Shown: positions 1 to 9,513 of the stretch, piece after piece
Position numbering within the stretch: the stretch's first letter is position 1
Layout: every line of letters starts with the position of its first letter
DNA from: Candidatus Cottocaccamicrobium excrementipullorum
GTDB taxonomy: Bacteria; Bacillota; Clostridia; Lachnospirales; Lachnospiraceae
DNA length: 64,000 bases
Assembly: GCA_018713255.1 (NCBI GenBank)
Contig: DVFL01000021.1
Coordinates: forward strand, 1-64,000
Reading direction: 5' to 3'
The notes under the pieces: generated by a model
What the model saw: the letters and a program-made list of their open reading frames with translations, nothing else
What the model was told of the DNA's origin: nothing
Databases searched by the model: none
Position numbers and translations under genes: made by a program

Positions 1-1
1 T

Positions 2-412
2 GGCCCCACCGGCCCTACCGGAGCGACTGGAGCAACCGGCCCAATCGGACCTGCCGGAGCAACTGGAGCAACTGGCCCCACCGGTCCTACCGGAGCAACT
101 GGCCCTACTGGTCCTACCGGAGCGACTGGGGCAACTGGCCCGACCGGCCCTACCGGAGCAGCTGGAGCAACCGGCCCGACCGGTCCTACCGGAGCAACTG
201 GAGCAACCGGCCCGACCGGTCCCACCGGAGCGACTGGAGCAACTGGCCCGACCGGCCCTACCGGAGCAGCTGGAGCAACTGGCCCCACCGGTCCTACCGG
301 AGCGACTGGGGCAACTGGCCCCACCGGCCCTACCGGAGCGACTGGAGCAACCGGCCCCACCGGTCCCACCGGGGCAACCGGAGCAATTGGTCCAACTGGC
401 CCCACCGGGGCG
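2..412 (+). repeat. Tandem 9-bp-based collagen-coding repeat
   Basis: Imperfect 9-bp units (GGNCCNACC and GGAGCNACT types) are arranged in larger alternating blocks. They encode Gly-Pro-Thr and Gly-Ala-Thr triplets. Such tracts change length by slippage or recombination and can recombine with other collagen-like genes, so assembly here could be collapsed. Confidence 0.9.
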
Positions 413-496
413 TTTACAATAAGAATTCTTCTGCTGTCGGCAGTCTTTTCTCCTTATTCATTTGATTATGCATTGGACAATCAAGCTTTGTCATAA
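2..496 (+). CDS. Collagen-like protein, 5' portion (open at window edge, disrupted 3' end)
   Basis: The reading frame enters from the left edge and is an uninterrupted run of Gly-X-Thr/Ala triplets ([13 protein letters not shown] style) to about position 412. This is the collagen-like rod of BclA-type surface or exosporium glycoproteins. The triplets then stop abruptly and 27 unrelated residues follow before TAA, so the natural C-terminal domain is missing. A matching rod end plus C-terminal domain lies on the same strand at 4225-4704. I infer that this is the N-terminal part of one gene interrupted by the recombinase-bearing segment. The true start and any N-terminal targeting sequence lie outside the window. 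Thr in the Y position is a usual O-glycosylation site in such proteins. An alternative is that the two pieces come from two different collagen-like paralogues. Confidence 0.85.
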
Positions 497-559
497 ATAT
501 TGGTAACGCCTTACGGTTTGGTTTAATGACCGTTGAATGACGAAGGAGCATAATAGAAA

Positions 560-835
560 ATGGGAATTTCTGAATGTGAAAGAAATGGAGCGAATAGAAA
601 AGCTGAGAAATCGGGGAATCCCCAATGTGATGAAAGAAAAGAAATCGGAGAATTGATTCTTGATCATTCTGTTCCTATGGAAGAGAGAGTTTTTAAATTA
701 TTTGGGCAGGAGGAGATTCCCTGCTGTTTTCGGGCGGGAGATTTGATGGTTGATCTGGAATTTTCTCCAGATGGACCTGGGATTCAGGAGATTTTTGACG
801 GCTATCTGCGCAGAAAGAAAAGCGGTATTGGTTAA
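560..835 (+). CDS. Small acidic protein upstream of serine recombinase (91 aa)
   Basis: I do not recognise a named family with confidence. The central part, from MEERVFKLFGQEE through CCFRAGDLMVDLEF, resembles short proteins often encoded directly before serine recombinases in clostridial elements. The preceding AAGGAG is about 11 bases from the ATG. The gene ends 30 bp before the recombinase start, in the same direction, so the two are probably cotranscribed. Two adjacent Cys and a short acidic N-terminus are visible; there is no signal peptide or membrane segment. A role as accessory or directionality factor is only a guess from position. The N-terminal 25 residues are polar and look poorly conserved. 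Confidence 0.6.
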   Translation: MGISECERNGANRKAEKSGNPQCDERKEIGELILDHSVPMEERVFKLFGQEEIPCCFRAGDLMVDLEFSPDGPGIQEIFDGYLRRKKSGIG

Positions 836-865
836 TCGTTTAAATTTCCGGAAAAGAGGCGAGGG

Positions 866-2530
866 ATGACGAGAATAGACCGCAGCAAGGAAGGAAGAAG
901 GGTTCAGAAAGAGGAGGAAAGAAACCAATGGAAACCGGCATGGCGGATAGGAGTCTATATCCGGCTTTCCAAGGAGGACGGGCGCTGTCTGGATGAGTCA
1001 GAAAGTGTGACCAATCAGCGGGAAATTAACCTGGAGTTCATTCGGGAAAAGTTTTTGGGGGAATCATACCGGATTGTGGGGGAATATGTTGATGACGGCA
1101 GAACAGGAACGTCAGAGGAGGCAAGACCAGAGTTTAAACGGCTTTGCAGGGATATTGCTTCCGGCAAAGTGAATTGTGTGGTATGTAAAACCTTGTCCAG
1201 AGCATTTCGCAATTATGCAGACCAGGGTAAATTTCTGGAACAGTTTCTTCCGGAGCATAACTGTCGTTTTATTGCAGTGGGGAGTCCATTTGTGGATACT
1301 TATAAGGATCCGGCGCTGCTTTACAGCCTGGAAGTGCCGATAAACGGGCTGATGAACGACCGGTATGCAGCCAGAACTTCGGAAGATGTGCGGAGAACAT
1401 TTCAGACGAAGCGAAAAAAGGGGGAATTTATTGGAGCTTTTGCTCCTTATGGATACAGCAAAAAAGCAGGAGATAAGAATGCACTGGTGATTGATCCGGA
1501 AGCTTCTGCAGTTGTACGGGGAATTTTTGAAAAATTTCTTGCTGGAGAAAGCAAAGGAGAGATTGCCGCCTGGCTGAATGCCCAAGGAATTCTTTGTCCT
1601 ACCCGGTATAAGCAGGAACAACTGAGACAGAATTATCAGAATCCCAATGTACTGCCAGGGAGCAGGACTCTTTGGAGCACCGGCACCATAAGGGAAATTT
1701 TAAAGAACCGGATGTACTGCGGAGATATGGTCCAGGGGCGGTACCGGATTAAAAGTTATAAAGTACATATTCAAGAGAGAATGCCGGAAAGAGAATGGTT
1801 TGTGGTGGAAAATACACATGAACCGATTATTGACCGAGACATGTTTTGTCAGGTGCAGAATCTCCTGGAACGGGAGACCAGGAGGCCGCCGGGGAAAACC
1901 GCTGTCTGTCTGTTCAGCGGGTTATTGTGGTGCGGCGACTGTAAACACTCTATGAATCGAAGCAGGACAAAGGATAAAATTTATTATTATTGCGGAACTT
2001 ACAAAAAGCGTTCCAAAAGAGCTTGTTCTAAACATATGGTTCGGCATTCTTCTTTGGAGGCTGCTTTGCTGCAGATTCTAAGATTGTTTGTGTATTTAGG
2101 GATAGATTGGGAAGAAACAAATGGAAAATTGTGCCAGAGTCCGGTGGAAAGTACTCTTGAACAATGTATAAAGGCTGCGGAAAGGCATCAAATACAGCAG
2201 ATGGAACGGATCGGCAGGTATCAACGTTTGGCTTATGAAGATTGGAAGGAAGGCCGGATTACGCAGAGGGATTTTGAGAGAATAAAGACGGAATATGATC
2301 ATCAGGCAGCTTGGTTAGAACGGGAGAGCGGGAAAGGGGAAGATAAAGCCTCTGAAGAAAAAGAGGATGAAGAGGAGTGCAGTGGAGGGTGGCGGGAAAT
2401 CCTGCAGAAGCAAACGCTCCTCAAACTGTCAAGGGATAGTTTGCTGGAGCTGGTGGAAGGAATTCGGATTTATGAGGAGGGCAGGATTTGCATTGTTTTC
2501 CGATTTCGAAAATTGAAAGGAGAAGGATGA
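866..2530 (+). CDS. Large serine recombinase (resolvase/integrase type, 554 aa)
   Basis: This enzyme cuts and rejoins DNA at att-like sites through a phosphoserine link. The N-terminal resolvase domain (about 28-170) contains YIRLSKEDG with the probable catalytic Ser35, then the recombinase domain (about 190-300, GYSKKAGDKNALVIDPEAS and IREILKNRMYCGD). A zinc-ribbon domain follows (CGDC near 354, and YYYCGTYKKRSKRACSK), then a polar, coiled-coil-like tail. About 550 residues is usual for the SpoIVCA/TnpX-like group. Start ATG follows GAGGCGAGGG. It lies wholly inside the segment that splits the collagen-like gene and is the obvious candidate for moving it. The zinc ribbon and catalytic region look intact, so it may be active. 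The exact target site cannot be read from sequence alone. Confidence 0.93.
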   Translation: MTRIDRSKEGRRVQKEEERNQWKPAWRIGVYIRLSKEDGRCLDESESVTNQREINLEFIREKFLGESYRIVGEYVDDGRTGTSEEARPEFKRLCRDIASGKVNCVVCKTLSRAFRNYADQGKFLEQFLPEHNCRFIAVGSPFVDTYKDPALLYSLEVPINGLMNDRYAARTSEDVRRTFQTKRKKGEFIGAFAPYGYSKKAGDKNALVIDPEASAVVRGIFEKFLAGESKGEIAAWLNAQGILCPTRYKQEQLRQNYQNPNVLPGSRTLWSTGTIREILKNRMYCGDMVQGRYRIKSYKVHIQERMPEREWFVVENTHEPIIDRDMFCQVQNLLERETRRPPGKTAVCLFSGLLWCGDCKHSMNRSRTKDKIYYYCGTYKKRSKRACSKHMVRHSSLEAALLQILRLFVYLGIDWEETNGKLCQSPVESTLEQCIKAAERHQIQQMERIGRYQRLAYEDWKEGRITQRDFERIKTEYDHQAAWLERESGKGEDKASEEKEDEEECSGGWREILQKQTLLKLSRDSLLELVEGIRIYEEGRICIVFRFRKLKGEG

Positions 2531-2560
2531 AAAGCGCTGCCTGCCGAGAAAGAATAGAGG

Positions 2561-2597
2561 CGGCCCAGGAATATAACTTCATTCCTGGGCCGTTTTT
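2561..2597 (+). terminator. Strong Rho-independent terminator after the recombinase
   Basis: A perfect 12-bp stem (CGGCCCAGGAAT with ATTCCTGGGCCG) and an 8-base loop are followed by TTTTTGC. It closes the recombinase transcript before the convergent permease gene. Confidence 0.9.
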
Positions 2598-2661
2598 GCT
2601 TTTTATGTATTCCCTCTTTTGCGCATTCCCCCTTCCGGATGAGCGTCAGACAGGGTTAGGG

Positions 2662-4080
2662 TTATTGTTTCGCTTTTTCTTCCGCTGACGGATCAGAAGG
2701 AAGAATGAGACTTAAAAACAGGGCGATGACAAAAACTCCTGCGACTGCGTTTCCGTTAAAAATATCTCCAACTGCCTGGGGGAAGGCGGCGAAAAAGTTT
2801 CCGGAAGTCTGCGTCAGTCCCACGCCGATAGCGAAGGAGAGGGAAACGATGGTCATAGTCCGATCATTGAAGGGACATGATTTAAGCATTTTAATCCCTT
2901 CATAAAGAATGGAACCGAACATTGTCACAGTGCAGCCGCCCAGTACAGGCTGAGGCAGAGAATTAAAGAAGGCACCTAAGGGCGGAAACAGGGATGAAAT
3001 GATCAGAATCAATGCTCCCATTAAAATAGTAAATCGGTTAATGACTCCAGTCATGGTAACCAAGCCTACGTTTTGACTGAAGGAAGTAAGAGGAAGGCAG
3101 CCAAAGCAGCCGGAAATGGCGCTGGAAAAACCATCTACTGCAAGAGAACCCTGAAGTTCCCTCATTTTAATCTCGCGGTTTAAGGCTCCGGTACACACGG
3201 CAATGGTGGCACCGGTGGTTTCTGCCGCAGAAACCAGGAAAACGACGGCGATGGTGAAAAATGCACCTAAATCAAATATAGGTTTATGTTCAGTGAAAAA
3301 CACCAGCTTCGGCAGACTGAATATTCCTACTTCATTGATGGTTTGGGAGATTCCGGAAAAATCAATCAGGGGAGCAATCCCGGCTGCAGTAAAAACAGCA
3401 GAGGCGATGTAACCGGCGATCAGTCCAATAAGGATATTCAGATTTTTATAAATCCCCTTTAGGAAATGGCGGGATAAAAGGCATATAAACAAGGTGAAGG
3501 CGCCGATCAACAGGTGGTACCAAGCGCCGAAATCACTGACTCCGCTTCCGCCTCCCCAGGAATCCATGCCTACCGGAAGGAGAGAAAGTCCAATGGCGAT
3601 GACCACGCAGGCCGATACCACAGGAGTAAGAAAACGTCTCCAGTATTTTGCGCTCAGGCCCACAACACCCTCGAAAATACCGCCAAGAATCACGGCGCCT
3701 ACCATTCCTTCATAGCCAAGCTGCGGGTTAGTGGCAATGACTAAAAGACTTCCTAAAAAGGTAAAGCTTACTCCCATTACAATGGGCAGTCCAGAGCCGA
3801 TTACACCGATGGGATAAAGCTGCATGCAGGTGCCGATTCCGGCAGCAAACATGGCGCACTGCAGAAGCTGTGTAATCTCGGCGGAAGTCAGATGCTGTCC
3901 GCTGTCTCTGACAATGGCTGCGCTGCATACAATCAGAACAGGCGCAAGATTGGACACAAACATGGCCAGTACGTGCTGCAGGCCGAAGGGAATGGCTCTG
4001 CTGAGAGGAACCCGGCCATTGAGCTGGTAAACATTTTCCGCGCATACGGAGGCTGTTGTTTTCTCTTTGTTTTTCATCAT
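2662..4080 (-). CDS. NCS2 (NAT) family purine permease, xanthine/uric acid type
   Basis: A 472-residue polytopic membrane protein of the nucleobase-cation symporter-2 family, which imports purines with H+ or Na+. The NAT signature is visible as QNVGLVTMTG, preceded by an acidic AAETTG helix segment, and the N-terminus has the typical FGLQHVLAMF. About 12-14 hydrophobic segments fit the family. Start ATG follows AAAGAGG. The 5' region (4081-4200 on the minus strand) contains a short CGGCTG/CAGCCG hairpin but no purine riboswitch that I can recognise. It points toward the recombinase and lies within the segment that splits the collagen-like gene, so it is either cargo or evidence of a second rearrangement. 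Xanthine against uric acid specificity cannot be settled. Confidence 0.88.
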   Translation of the reverse strand: MMKNKEKTTASVCAENVYQLNGRVPLSRAIPFGLQHVLAMFVSNLAPVLIVCSAAIVRDSGQHLTSAEITQLLQCAMFAAGIGTCMQLYPIGVIGSGLPIVMGVSFTFLGSLLVIATNPQLGYEGMVGAVILGGIFEGVVGLSAKYWRRFLTPVVSACVVIAIGLSLLPVGMDSWGGGSGVSDFGAWYHLLIGAFTLFICLLSRHFLKGIYKNLNILIGLIAGYIASAVFTAAGIAPLIDFSGISQTINEVGIFSLPKLVFFTEHKPIFDLGAFFTIAVVFLVSAAETTGATIAVCTGALNREIKMRELQGSLAVDGFSSAISGCFGCLPLTSFSQNVGLVTMTGVINRFTILMGALILIISSLFPPLGAFFNSLPQPVLGGCTVTMFGSILYEGIKMLKSCPFNDRTMTIVSLSFAIGVGLTQTSGNFFAAFPQAVGDIFNGNAVAGVFVIALFLSLILPSDPSAEEKAKQ

Positions 4081-4200
4081 TAAACCTCTTTCTTTTTATT
4101 CCGGCTGCTTTTTCACAGCCGCCACAGTAAAAACCTATCCTATCATACCTATTTTTTCGTCCTGTGTCTACTAATCTGTAAAAATTATTCCATTTATATT

Positions 4201-4704
4201 TTGTTATATTTGGCAAAAGCACAGGGCTCCACCGGTCCAACCGGCCCAACCGGCCCAACTGGTCCGGCATCATCAGCAGCGGCGGCCAATTATCTTTCGG
4301 CATATTCCATCCCGGCAGCTACCGGAGCTTCAGGTCAGTCTTTGGTATTTGACCGGAACGGGCTGTCTGCAGGGAATGCAATTTCCCACTCGGCAGGAAG
4401 CGGCACCTTTACGGTAAATCAGCCTGGAGTATATATGGCTGCTTTTCAGGGAAACTTTTCTCCTGCAGGGGATACCACTTTGCCCTATACCATTACCATC
4501 TCTCTGAATGTAAATGGAAGCATGTCTCAAAGCGGAATCGCTTCTCAGAAGTTTAATTTATCTTCTGACAATCAGAGCCTTGCCTTTTCTGCGCCCTTTA
4601 CGGTTTCTTCCGTGCCGGCTGCCGTCAGCATACAGAGTTTGGGAGGTCCTTTTTTATATAATACAACAGGGCTGACGATTTATCGCCTTGGAGATCTTTC
4701 ATGA
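4201..4704 (+). CDS. Collagen-like protein, 3' portion with BclA-like C-terminal domain
   Basis: From 4225 the frame reads four Gly-X-Thr/Pro-type triplets followed by about 145 residues with the alternating hydrophobic/polar beta pattern of the trimeric, TNF/C1q-like C-terminal domain of BclA proteins. Examples are SGTFTVNQPGVYMAAFQGN and FLYNTTGLTIYRLGDLS. The stretch before 4225 (TTG at 4201, then LLYLAKAQ) has no ribosome binding site and does not look collagenous. I therefore see this as the displaced 3' end of the gene that begins at the window's left edge, silent unless the intervening segment is removed. Its stop overlaps the start of the glycosyltransferase by 4 bp (ATGA), a typical operon join. 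Confidence 0.8.
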   Translation: MLYLAKAQGSTGPTGPTGPTGPASSAAAANYLSAYSIPAATGASGQSLVFDRNGLSAGNAISHSAGSGTFTVNQPGVYMAAFQGNFSPAGDTTLPYTITISLNVNGSMSQSGIASQKFNLSSDNQSLAFSAPFTVSSVPAAVSIQSLGGPFLYNTTGLTIYRLGDLS

Positions 4705-5792
4705 AGATTGTTGTCTATGGAATTTGCAAGAATGAGGCGTCTTTTGCAGATCGATGGATGGATTCTATGGGAGAGGCTGACAAGGTGGTTGTTTTAGATA
4801 CTGGATCAGAGGACGGCACAGCAGAGAAACTGAAAAAACGTGGGGCTGTGGTGGCGGAGGAAAGGATTGTGCCGTGGCGGTTTGATACGGCTAGGAATCG
4901 TTCTCTTGAATTGGTGGATGAGGATGCAGATATCTGTGTATGCACAGACCTGGATGAGGTTTTCGTACCCGGTTGGCGGAACCGTTTGGAGAAGGCCTGG
5001 AGTCAAGGAACCACCAGAGTCAGTTACCGCTATACCTGGAGCTTTCTTTCTGATGGGAGAGAAGGAGTGGTGTTCTGGATTGATAAGATTCACAGCCGGA
5101 AGGGGTACCGGTGGAGTCATCCTGTTCATGAGGTACTGGAGTGGACGGGAGAAATGGGGCAGGAAAAAATAGCGGCGGCAGAGGGGATACAGCTGAATCA
5201 TTTTCCTGATCCTTCAAAGTCCAGAGGGCAGTATCTTGAGCTTCTGGAACTCTCGGTAAAGGAATCGCCGGAGGATGACCGGAACATGCATTATCTGGGA
5301 AGGGAATATTTATATCGGGGAAGATGGGATGAGTGTATTGCTGTGCTGAAGAGGCATCTTGCCATGCCTGCAGCGGTGTGGAAGGATGAGCGGGCGGCGT
5401 CCATGCGGTATATTGCCAGGGCTTATGCACAAAAAGGGGAGAGGCAGGAAGCCAGAAATTGGTATTTGAGGGCCATTGCCCAGGCGCCTTATCTTCGAGA
5501 ACCTTATCTTGATCTTGCTTTTTTGCTGTATGAAGAACAGCAGTGGGATGGAGTGCTTTATTTTACCGGATGTGCTTTGGAAATTAAGGAAAGGCCGAGA
5601 ACTTATATCAGCGAAGCTGCTTCCTGGGGGAGCCTTCCCTATGATCTGCGTGGCTTGGCCTATTATTATACCGGCCGCTTGGAGCAGGGCCTTGCATTAG
5701 CCAGAGAGGCTCTCTCCAGAGAACCAGGAAATGAACGTTTGAAGAAAAATGTAAAACTGATGGAACAAAAGGCCGGAAGCAGAGAAAAATAA
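4701..5792 (+). CDS. GT2-family glycosyltransferase with C-terminal TPR repeats
   Basis: The N-terminal domain (about 1-110) is a GT-A fold of family 2: ICKNEASFADRWMDSM, VVLDTGSEDGT and the metal-binding CTDLDEVF. The middle (HSRKGYRWSHPVHEVLEW) fits SPBc2-type spore or surface glycosyltransferases. From about residue 190 to 350 there are helical tetratricopeptide-like repeats (YLGREYLYRGRWDECIAVL; YIARAYAQKGERQEARNWY; YDLRGLAYYYTGRLEQGLAL). It overlaps the collagen-like gene's stop codon by 4 bp, so it probably glycosylates Thr residues of that rod. If the upstream gene is truly interrupted, this gene also loses its native promoter unless one exists within the segment. Sugar donor unknown. 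Confidence 0.85.
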   Translation: MKIVVYGICKNEASFADRWMDSMGEADKVVVLDTGSEDGTAEKLKKRGAVVAEERIVPWRFDTARNRSLELVDEDADICVCTDLDEVFVPGWRNRLEKAWSQGTTRVSYRYTWSFLSDGREGVVFWIDKIHSRKGYRWSHPVHEVLEWTGEMGQEKIAAAEGIQLNHFPDPSKSRGQYLELLELSVKESPEDDRNMHYLGREYLYRGRWDECIAVLKRHLAMPAAVWKDERAASMRYIARAYAQKGERQEARNWYLRAIAQAPYLREPYLDLAFLLYEEQQWDGVLYFTGCALEIKERPRTYISEAASWGSLPYDLRGLAYYYTGRLEQGLALAREALSREPGNERLKKNVKLMEQKAGSREK

Positions 5793-7773: not shown

Positions 7774-9513
7774 TCAAGCAGGCTGATCAAAGTCGCCGTT
7801 GCCTTCAAGCTGTGAGTTGTAGATTTCCTGGTAAATGGCATTGGTTTTCAGCAGATTTTCATGGGTGTCGAAGGCGTTGATCTTTCCTTCATCCAGCACC
7901 AATATCCGGTCTGCAGACTGTACGCTGGAAATACGCTGGGCGATAATGATCTTGGTTGTGCCAGGAATCTGTTTGGCAAAGGCCGCCCGGATTTTTGCAT
8001 CAGTGGCAGTGTCTACAGCGCTGGTGGAATCATCCAGGATAAGAATCTTAGGCTTTTTCAGCAAAGCCCGGGCAATGCACAGACGCTGTTTTTGTCCGCC
8101 GGATACATTGGTGCCTCCTCGGGTGATTTGAGTGTGGTATCCATTGGGCATCCGGTCAATGAATTCATCAGCACAGGCCGCTTTGCAGGCATTAATGCAT
8201 TCTTCATCAGTAGCGTCAGGATTTCCCCAGCGGAGATTATCCAGAATAGTGCCGGAAAACAAAGTATTTTTCTGCAGAACCACGGAAACCTGATTTCTCA
8301 GAACTTCCGTATCGTAATTGCGGACGTCTACGCCGCCTACACAGACGGAGCCGCTGTCCACATCATAAAGCCGGCAGATCAGATTCACCAGACTGCTTTT
8401 TCCAGAACCGGTGCCGCCGATGACGCCGATGGTTTCTCCGCTTTTAATATGAAGATCAATATCGGACAAGGCGTTTTTGCCGCTGCCCCGCTTATAGGAA
8501 AAGTTAACATGGTTAAAATCAATCTGTCCGTCAGTCACTTCTGTTACCGGATTTTCCGGGTCCGTAAGGTCTGCTTTTTCATTTAACACTTCGCCGATAC
8601 GGCGGATGCTGGCCATTGACATGCTGATCATAACGATCACCATTGACAGCATCATGAGGCTCATGAGAAGAGACATAATGTAGCTGAACAGGCTGGTAAG
8701 ATCGCCGGTGGTCATGGTGCCGCCTACAATGTATTTTGCGCCGAACCAGGACACGGAAATGATGCAGAAATAAATGGCTACCATCATTGCCGGGTTGTTG
8801 AACGCCAGAAGTCCTTCTGCTTTTACAGAAAGATCATAAAGCATTTTTGAGGCTTTGGAGAATTTCATGTTTTCATAGGCCTCCCGAACGAAGGCTTTTA
8901 CCACGCGGATTGCAGTGACATTTTCCTGTACGCTGGCATTTAAGTCATCGTATTTACGGAATACCTGTTTAAAGATTTTCAGGGTGATCACCATGATTGT
9001 GCCGATGACAATCACCAGAAATACTACAGCGATTAAAAACATGGAGCTTAAATGGGGGCTGATAATCAGGCACATAGCAAAGCTGAAGATCAGATTCAGC
9101 GGCGCCCGGACAGCCACTCGGATGATCATCATGAAAGCGTTCTGTACATTGGTAATATCCGTGGTCATACGGGTAACCAGGCCGGGAACGCTGAACTTGT
9201 CAATATTGGAAAAGGAAAAGGTTTGGATATTTGCATAGATTCCTTCCCGCAGATTGGCTGCCAGTCCGGAAGAAGCAGTGGAGGCATTCCTTCCTGCCAG
9301 CCCGCCGAAAATCAGGCTGAGAAAGGCCATGACGACCATTAAAGTTCCGTAGCGGTAAACTACGGAAAGGTTGCTGACCTCAAGTCCTCTGTCAATGATA
9401 ATAGCGGTGACAAAGGGCATCAGGATTTCCATAATTACTTCCAGGGTGGTAAATCCAATGCATAAGAAGGTGTTTCGCTTATACTGCTTGAGTTGTTGTA
9501 ATACTTTCTTCAC
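7774..9513 (-). CDS. ABC exporter subunit with degenerate ATPase site (579 aa)
   Basis: The partner subunit: membrane domain (about 1-300) plus NBD with Walker A GGTGSGKS and signature VSGGQKQR. Its Walker B ends ILILDDSTSAVD, with Asp where the catalytic Glu should be, and the switch region reads IIIAQRISS, with Gln in place of His. This is the usual pattern of asymmetric heterodimeric exporters in which only one composite site hydrolyses ATP efficiently. The start is GTG, with AGGAGG 8 bases upstream. The gene begins inside the last 35 bp of the MarR gene, so the three genes form one operon. Loss of either subunit should abolish export. Confidence 0.93.
   Translation of the reverse strand: MKKVLQQLKQYKRNTFLCIGFTTLEVIMEILMPFVTAIIIDRGLEVSNLSVVYRYGTLMVVMAFLSLIFGGLAGRNASTASSGLAANLREGIYANIQTFSFSNIDKFSVPGLVTRMTTDITNVQNAFMMIIRVAVRAPLNLIFSFAMCLIISPHLSSMFLIAVVFLVIVIGTIMVITLKIFKQVFRKYDDLNASVQENVTAIRVVKAFVREAYENMKFSKASKMLYDLSVKAEGLLAFNNPAMMVAIYFCIISVSWFGAKYIVGGTMTTGDLTSLFSYIMSLLMSLMMLSMVIVMISMSMASIRRIGEVLNEKADLTDPENPVTEVTDGQIDFNHVNFSYKRGSGKNALSDIDLHIKSGETIGVIGGTGSGKSSLVNLICRLYDVDSGSVCVGGVDVRNYDTEVLRNQVSVVLQKNTLFSGTILDNLRWGNPDATDEECINACKAACADEFIDRMPNGYHTQITRGGTNVSGGQKQRLCIARALLKKPKILILDDSTSAVDTATDAKIRAAFAKQIPGTTKIIIAQRISSVQSADRILVLDEGKINAFDTHENLLKTNAIYQEIYNSQLEGNGDFDQPA

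Follow-up and report, generated by a model that had tools for sequence, protein, structure and literature searches.

A Collagen-Like Gene Split by a Large Serine Recombinase Element That Is Probably Excised During Sporulation

The stretch of DNA analyzed here, referred to as the window, comprises positions 1-64000 of contig C1 (DVFL01000021.1) of Candidatus Cottocaccamicrobium excrementipullorum, whose genome (G000) is assembled in 42 contigs. Near its start, a gene for a collagen-like protein is split by a 3,827-bp segment. This segment is likely an integrated large serine recombinase (LSR) element that occupies an attachment site (attB) in the rod of a mother-cell gene for a spore-surface glycoprotein and is excised in sporulation, as the skin element is. 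The part of this reading that is drawn from the sequence comprises LSR and DUF6870 genes, att-like junctions, in-frame rejoining, membership in a clade of related LSRs, and motifs of the sigma-E and sigma-K types. A spore-surface location is probable for the collagen-like protein. Programmed excision in sporulation is known for a handful of genes. We found no account of LSR elements in bacterial collagen-like genes in the literature covered, most subscription journals lying outside that coverage. An LSR clade specialized to spore-collagen rods, with up to three elements stacked per gene, would appear to be new.

The split gene and its element

Gly-X-Thr coding runs from position 2 to 412; it picks up again at 4225, on the same strand but in a different frame, as a first-pass annotation of this DNA had read from the open reading frames (ORFs). 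The 5' part of the gene (1..405, plus strand) matches Pfam Collagen at 3.1e-22, and its start probably lies on contig C8. The 3' part (4231..4704, plus strand), supported by ORF, Pfam, homologues, and the ratio of nonsynonymous to synonymous change (dN/dS), contains the end of the rod and a C-terminal domain. The Gly-X-Thr rod is one mark of BclA proteins. The resemblance of the C-terminal domain to BclA is weak, with BclA_C at 22.4 bits against a Pfam cut-off of 38, and the earlier label of BclA-like has to be weakened to that extent. The window starts at the contig edge, inside the collagen repeat. A DNA search of the genome found collagen matches on C1 and at the end of C8 only. The last 31 bases of C8 are identical to window positions 1-31, so the contig break lies in the repeat. 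On the basis of this overlap, C8 probably carries the upstream half of the gene and adjoins C1. It has a start codon at 8183, a Cys-rich head (MMCDEFSSNRFKRNCCCRG...), and the sigma-K-type sequence AACC-N15-CATAAGATA.

Three genes were identified between attL and attR, and no others. An ORF of 91 amino acids (560..835, plus strand) encodes a DUF6870 protein (PF21757, 1.3e-7), a candidate recombination directionality factor or LSR partner. It is followed by the LSR gene (866..2530, plus strand), an intact ORF of 554 amino acids with Resolvase, Recombinase, and Zn-ribbon domains, which bears out the intact recombinase that had been noticed between the two halves. Its Resolvase domain has the YxRLS serine motif, and S35, which we take to be the catalytic serine, is invariant in six aligned sequences. 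Among solved structures, the best match to the LSR is the SPbeta recombinase YokA (3.5e-17), also named SprA. The third gene (2662..4080, minus strand) is cargo and encodes a xanthine/NCS2 permease (PF00860, 6.2e-74; NF037981 above and TIGR03173 below their own cut-offs). The DUF6870 ORF, the antisense permease, and a sigma-E-type promoter-like sequence at 470-502 were all missing from the first-pass annotation. Relaxase or transfer genes, which mark integrative and conjugative elements, were not identified among the ORFs and Pfam matches between attL and attR.

Crossover site and in-frame rejoining

Comparison with relatives places the attL core at AC 404..405, the first two bases of a Thr codon, with the spacing and codon phase seen in the relatives. 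The element-side arm of attL (P', 406..428) contains AATAAGAA, as in loci L093 and L094. The element-side arm of attR (P, 4208..4230) begins with ATTTGGCAAA, as in L167, and is followed by the attR core AC at 4231..4232; all four features are on the plus strand. We infer that crossover occurs at these AC dinucleotides, within a common 7-mer, CCACCGG (402-408 / 4229-4235). The bases GGCTCC before 4231 and CGGGGCG after 405 would then be attP arm bases that imitate collagen codons. A crossover at GG 407-408 / 4225-4226, as first proposed, is rejected because the arms of relatives put the core at AC. The other part of that proposal stands: removal of the element in silico at the AC cores restores the rod in frame. 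An element that carries its own LSR and splits a coding sequence, and whose exact removal restores the frame, fits the skin type, and this arrangement was found in silico in the window and in relatives. For the window alone, a match of frame could be one-in-three luck; the att geometry of the whole family is not.

This geometry was examined with a 23-nt arm matrix, seeded with eight hand-chosen arms. The matrix was run over the region 3' of the LSR at 92 loci, against a background of one shuffle per locus. At 59 of these 92 loci, an arm at the fixed 23-nt spacing outscores the best shuffle. The core in these 59 is AC in 35, GT in nine, TT in nine, and another dinucleotide in six. The window is not among them because its att sites are not behind its LSR. 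Collagen is read at 40 of the 44 AC or GT cores, the exceptions being L139, L158, L108, and L131. The L139 junction, 3' of its LSR, reads GTGALAAV and is MATE-like by eye, and the L158 junction is in an unidentified gene. The L144 junction, also 3' of its LSR, has the core GT in forward sense, in the Val codon of GAV, which may reflect a switch of core dinucleotide in the clade.

The palindrome test of paired arms is weak alone, as mismatched pairs reach 20. Mismatched pairs score high because arms are common to the family, and the fixed spacing was therefore used instead. Without a phase constraint, the best attL/attR pairing is in frame in 16 of 20 pairs and has AC in 15. By this score L128, L042, L099, and the window are out of frame, although the first two and the window can be paired in frame at AC. 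No convincing arm match was seen in L099, L109, and L127 among the 20 pairs, and these were not joined. Joins at the AC core keep the register of the rod at the joint in 19 of 19 in silico cases, with the phase imposed or chosen by eye for 17 and, for the remaining two, AC imposed and the phase free. Some joined genes have a start or stop beyond the contig, and the joined ORF of L151 is without a C-terminal domain.

The best complete attP in the collected sequences is in CP141730.1, at 35.8 bits; the next reaches 20.0 and has an AA/TT core. It lies directly 3' of the LSR and reads GTTTTCCTAATAATAGTGCACCG-GT-GGGGGCACACATATAAGGAAAAC, with the layout 23-2-23, and it was not used in building the arm matrix. 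CP141730.1 is a circular record of 72,574 bp with ParAB, a MobP3 relaxase, and a VirD4-type gene, and it shares the promoter-like motif. The clade thus has a member in circular form with the predicted att site, which could be either an excised element or an integrating plasmid. The annotation of rpsI, rplM, Rex, Ku, and DNA ligase in addition to the LSR in this record (L290/L293, 72.6 kb) is unusual for a plasmid.

Interrupted and uninterrupted homologues

The genus was sampled with 11 genomes, that of the window included. The closest C-terminal halves in the genus, in genomes G001 and G002, also lie 3' of att-like junctions, belonging to other elements. In G002, three elements of 4,094, 4,947, and 2,061 bp are present in one collagen gene. 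Removing all three in silico gives a single ORF of 484 amino acids, open at the contig edge, with the C-terminal domain at its end.

At the family level, the C-terminal domain was found in 17 of 299 genomes at E 1e-10. Uninterrupted homologues, for which the first-pass annotation had advised a search, do exist: the rod and the C-terminus are in one continuous ORF in 13 of the 16 homologues other than that of the window, with the G256 homologue touching a contig edge and the G056 match having a flagged stop. An element carrying an LSR and genes that resemble response regulators interrupts the homologue in G069, and contig ends truncate those in G141 and G267. Two separate, complete collagen-like genes, the finding that had been named as contrary to a split gene, were not encountered among these relatives.

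A clade of collagen-targeting recombinases

A scan of genome contigs confirmed at least 561 relatives of the LSR, and the best 80 named ones were taken as the LSR set. A collagen rod lies beside 50 of these 80, as opposed to none of 15 other LSR ORFs (loci L044-L062). Beside is taken here to require four or more collagen triplets in a run; 46 such runs are within 300 bp of the LSR 3' end, and four are within 560 bp of the 5' end. Beyond the 50, L113, L123, L134, and L142 have shorter or filtered collagen runs at the core. Hosts of collagen-linked LSRs include [Clostridium] methylpentosum, Hungatella hathewayi, Clostridium fessum, C. sporosphaeroides, Oscillibacter, Flavonifractor, and a Peptococcaceae metagenome-assembled genome. 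Ninety-two LSRs, 59 of them labelled collagen-linked, were placed in a quick maximum-likelihood tree, which requires 13 label changes against 27.1 with shuffled labels, and none of 500 shuffles was as low. One of these labels, on L100 (a frameshifted LSR), is wrong; L100 is absent from the strict count of 50 in 80. The window LSR falls on a long branch in a group of six, all collagen-linked, with a support of 100 in the Shimodaira-Hasegawa-like approximate likelihood-ratio test.

Among 54 elements, including four outside collagen (L108, L131, L158, and L139), 40 have a DUF6870 gene ahead of the LSR and on its strand, at a distance of at most 144 bp in 37. LSRs outside collagen genes can also have DUF6870 upstream.

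The nine cases with a TT core, together with L150 and L171, form the sister group in the LSR tree. Their junctions (L110-L112, L114, L115, L117, L118, L124, and L152) have the core TT/AA in an Asn codon, and translation past the core closes with G(F/L)(L/I)G-(P/R/E/A)-(K/N), taken by eye for the start of an ABC Walker-A motif. On this reading, the sister clade apparently occupies Walker-A GPN codons in genes that resemble those of ABC transporters; Pfam gave no match on two short sister-clade fragments, leaving the Walker-A reading unconfirmed. If this clade is truly in Walker-A sequence, it would show how an LSR can shift its coding-sequence target from GPTG to GPNG.

Promoter-like motifs of the sporulation sigma factors

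The sigma-E-type promoter-like sequence of the element (GCATTGGACAATC-N9-CATAAATAT; 470..502, plus strand) ends 57 bases before the DUF6870 start. With a matrix from which the window was excluded, it scores 20.6 bits, a value equalled by none of 2000 shuffles and none of 1185 upstream regions of ordinary genes, the latter being from fetched loci and taken at mechanical ORF starts. The sigma-E-type pattern ATA-N16-18-CATA is present in 28 of 54 deduplicated upstream regions of collagen-linked operons, from which L108, L131, L158, and L139 had been taken out; 300 shuffles gave a mean of 2.9 and a maximum of 9. The stricter form CAT[AT]-N17-CATA is found in 22 of the 54 (shuffles: mean 0.5, maximum 3). 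Ordinary upstream regions have the ATA pattern in 78 of 1185 cases and the stricter form in 5 of 1185 (Fisher p=1e-17 and 7e-28, respectively). The pattern occurs in none of five deduplicated upstream regions in the sister clade and in four of 15 other LSRs, namely L104 and L106, which are in the collagen clade of the tree, L163, and L170. Distant LSRs have it in none of 10 cases, a set regrouped after viewing the data that omits these four matches and L157, which has no match. As a control, spoIVA was checked in 23 genomes, and it has the ATA pattern in 17, that of the window included; three of 26 spoIVA loci (L228, L249, and L250) are outside the 23. SpoIVA is present in G000 and its 10 congeners.

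The heads of collagen-like genes have a sigma-K-type pattern in 18 of 54 cases, some of the 54 probably being false ORF starts. Shuffles gave a mean of 0.96 and a maximum of 5, and ordinary genes have the pattern in 36 of 1185 (p=5e-13). The matching heads are nine of 33 on contigs with scanned LSRs and nine of 21 elsewhere. Graded scoring against consensus sequences for sigma-E and sigma-K gave, for recombinase operons, z=7.1 with sigma-E and 4.6 with sigma-K, and for collagen heads z=14.3 with sigma-K. The literature searched gave no confirmation of GGACAAG as the SpoIIID box.

A model for excision and its implications

On sporulation, sigma-E, perhaps with SpoIIID, would switch on the DUF6870-LSR operon in the mother cell. 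With DUF6870 serving as directionality factor, the LSR would recombine attL with attR and release a circle. Sigma-K would then transcribe the repaired collagen-like gene. The forespore would retain the element, and the germ line would be unchanged. The programmed-excision switch proposed in the first-pass annotation thus draws support from the homologues, the clade, the att geometry, and the motifs of the sigma-E and sigma-K types, with the program itself inferred and the likeness to BclA weak.

A clade-wide rule can be proposed that joins an LSR, a core that is mostly AC in a Thr codon, a sigma-E-type promoter for the recombinase, and a sigma-K-type target. In many Clostridia, such a rule would tie mobile elements to glycoproteins that are probably on the spore surface, and it predicts att sites base for base. 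It would also account for some broken-looking collagen-like genes in these genomes and offer LSRs with coding-repeat targets. DUF6870 is raised as a testable candidate for a directionality factor. A bolder extension, which we hold to be speculative and rather doubtful, treats the rods as a docking platform gated by sporulation. Gly-X-(AC)N codons in phase would let several LSR elements with sigma-E-type promoters stack in one gene without germ-line cost, as all would leave in the doomed mother cell; circles freed at lysis could aid dispersal, and in-phase cores could swap rod segments.

Contrary evidence and alternative explanations

Several findings weigh against programmed excision of the window element. 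Neither the excised gene nor a circle of this element was seen. Its P and P' arms score 12 against each other, as mismatched pairs do (mean 12.9), and its best attL/attR pairing without the phase constraint is out of frame. The LSR gene stops 1.7 kb short of attR, and no arm follows it (1.9 bits); most relatives differ in this respect, although L107, the sister of the window LSR in the tree, likewise has cargo between LSR and attR. The window element may have been rearranged or may no longer be excisable. With ATT at -35, the window site does not fit the plain ATA pattern. All promoter calls are matches to motifs; the stricter sigma-E form came to light in the data on which it was counted, and its [AT] was admitted after viewing the window. 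The role of DUF6870 as directionality factor is a guess. At the level of the clade, 30 of the best 80 named LSRs have no recognized rod beside them. Two pairs of LSRs that are identical over the aligned part (L138/L139 and L156/L158) each have one collagen-linked member and one that is not. Since identical LSRs are found in different sequence (L139 and L158), the choice of target is not absolute.

These elements could be plain mobile elements of a clade that uses abundant, repetitive collagen rods as sites, with the gene inactivated and any excision incidental. Conjugation genes near some relatives (relaxase PF03432 in L221; relaxase and VirD4-type genes on CP141730.1), the apparent Walker-A sites of the sister clade, and the several contigs that carry more than one collagen-like gene or fragment are in keeping with this view. 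It is at odds with the sigma-E-type motif, which marks 28 of 54 collagen-linked operons and none of the five sister-clade or 10 distant LSRs, and with the sigma-K-type motifs that heads on clade-LSR contigs keep in nine of 33 cases. The interrupted C-terminal halves also argue against it. The three in the genus have pairwise dN/dS of 0.17 and 0.28 (window against the G001 and G002 copies) and 0.19, with synonymous sites near saturation (proportion of differing synonymous sites, pS, 0.59-0.71). Such values fit a gene still in use, but would also fit a recent insertion. On balance, we consider the plain-element explanation unlikely.

Excision in sporulation is also to be set against a role in rod shuffling, in which attL and attR of different elements would recombine in frame and change the rod length or swap segments. 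As the cores are mostly AC in one codon phase, in-frame cross-recombination is conceivable, and the three same-phase elements in one G002 gene, whose removal leaves the 484-aa ORF, and the two or more in L107 would provide the substrates. The arms differ among the three G002 elements, however, and two of their LSRs share only 44 and 47% identity with that of the window, so cross-recombination may not occur. No alternative joints between elements were seen, and we judge shuffling to be quite improbable. Less credible still is an error of assembly, or a chance junction of two separate genes within repeats. The window does start at a contig break within the repeat, but the same layout with matching att arms is found in independent assemblies, and the right half of the gene begins precisely at an att-like site. 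These assemblies include the complete genome of the commensal Clostridium sp. MD294 (ASF356, NZ_CP097810.1), which has a complete element of 6,698 bp, the two halves of the gene, and a sigma-K-type motif.

Comparison with known intervening elements

The closest parallel to the proposed excision of the window element in sporulation is skin, which intervenes in sigK in Clostridioides difficile and Bacillus subtilis. In both cases, an LSR-bearing element splits a mother-cell gene, a probable one in the window. The target of skin is a sigma factor, whereas the window has a structural collagen-like gene, a small element, and att sites in a coding repeat. Furthermore, the LSR clade of the window is spread over several families, and its excision is a prediction. 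Skin recombination genes are under sigma-E and SpoIIID according to PMC5025042; the controlled gene is the recombinase in B. subtilis and the directionality factor in C. difficile.

The gin element in gerE of Bacillus cereus ATCC10987 is a non-prophage element with a serine recombinase, GirC, and a small directionality factor, GirX (PMC5595907). It differs in its size of 28.6 kb, its three recombinases, and its regulatory-gene target; the word 'collagen' is absent from the main text of that paper. SPbeta in spsM of B. subtilis resembles the window in having a spore-envelope polysaccharide gene as its target (PMC4191935), but it is a full prophage with a distantly related recombinase and an att site outside any coding repeat. 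The yin element in yabG of Clostridium botulinum likewise intervenes in a clostridial sporulation gene; it is set apart, by its description in the abstract of PMC10747680, as prophage-like and in another target. The LSR-bearing conjugative and mobilizable elements of C. difficile (CTns and Tn6104) share LSR-mediated excision, with a 2-bp repeat in Tn6104 (PMC3158075), in contrast to a window element without transfer genes. In that same text, 'collagen' refers to a Cna-type binding protein.

Neighboring genes and other observations

A gene for a glycosyltransferase-like/TPR protein (4701..5792, plus strand) overlaps the stop of the collagen-like gene. Its product is above the Pfam cut-off for TPR and slightly below it for Glycos_transf_2 (22.1 against 23.3 bits). 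The operon-linked glycosyltransferase of the first-pass annotation is therefore upheld as an overlapping downstream gene, but its family assignment falls just short in the window. Beside seven of the 16 homologues, a glycosyltransferase-like ORF was noted by eye, and the one tested passes. The G002 homologue of the window gene is above the Glycos_transf_2 cut-off.

Multi-LSR arrays were rejected as part of the same system because none of the LSR ORFs counted at these loci has collagen next to it. In G000, other LSR ORFs on contigs C9, C37, and C41 (L046, L045, and L048) run into or near contig ends, which suggests that the genome holds more repeat-bounded LSR elements that the assembly has not resolved. 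A gene pair for a MerR regulator and a YitT membrane protein is found at L036:1867-3565, L107:11532-13146, and L289:5335-6946, confirmed by Pfam in L289 and by eye in the others. The pair is inside collagen-gene elements in G002 and L107, and outside, upstream of the collagen gene, in the genome of the window. This difference in position indicates that cargo has seemingly been exchanged with the neighborhood.

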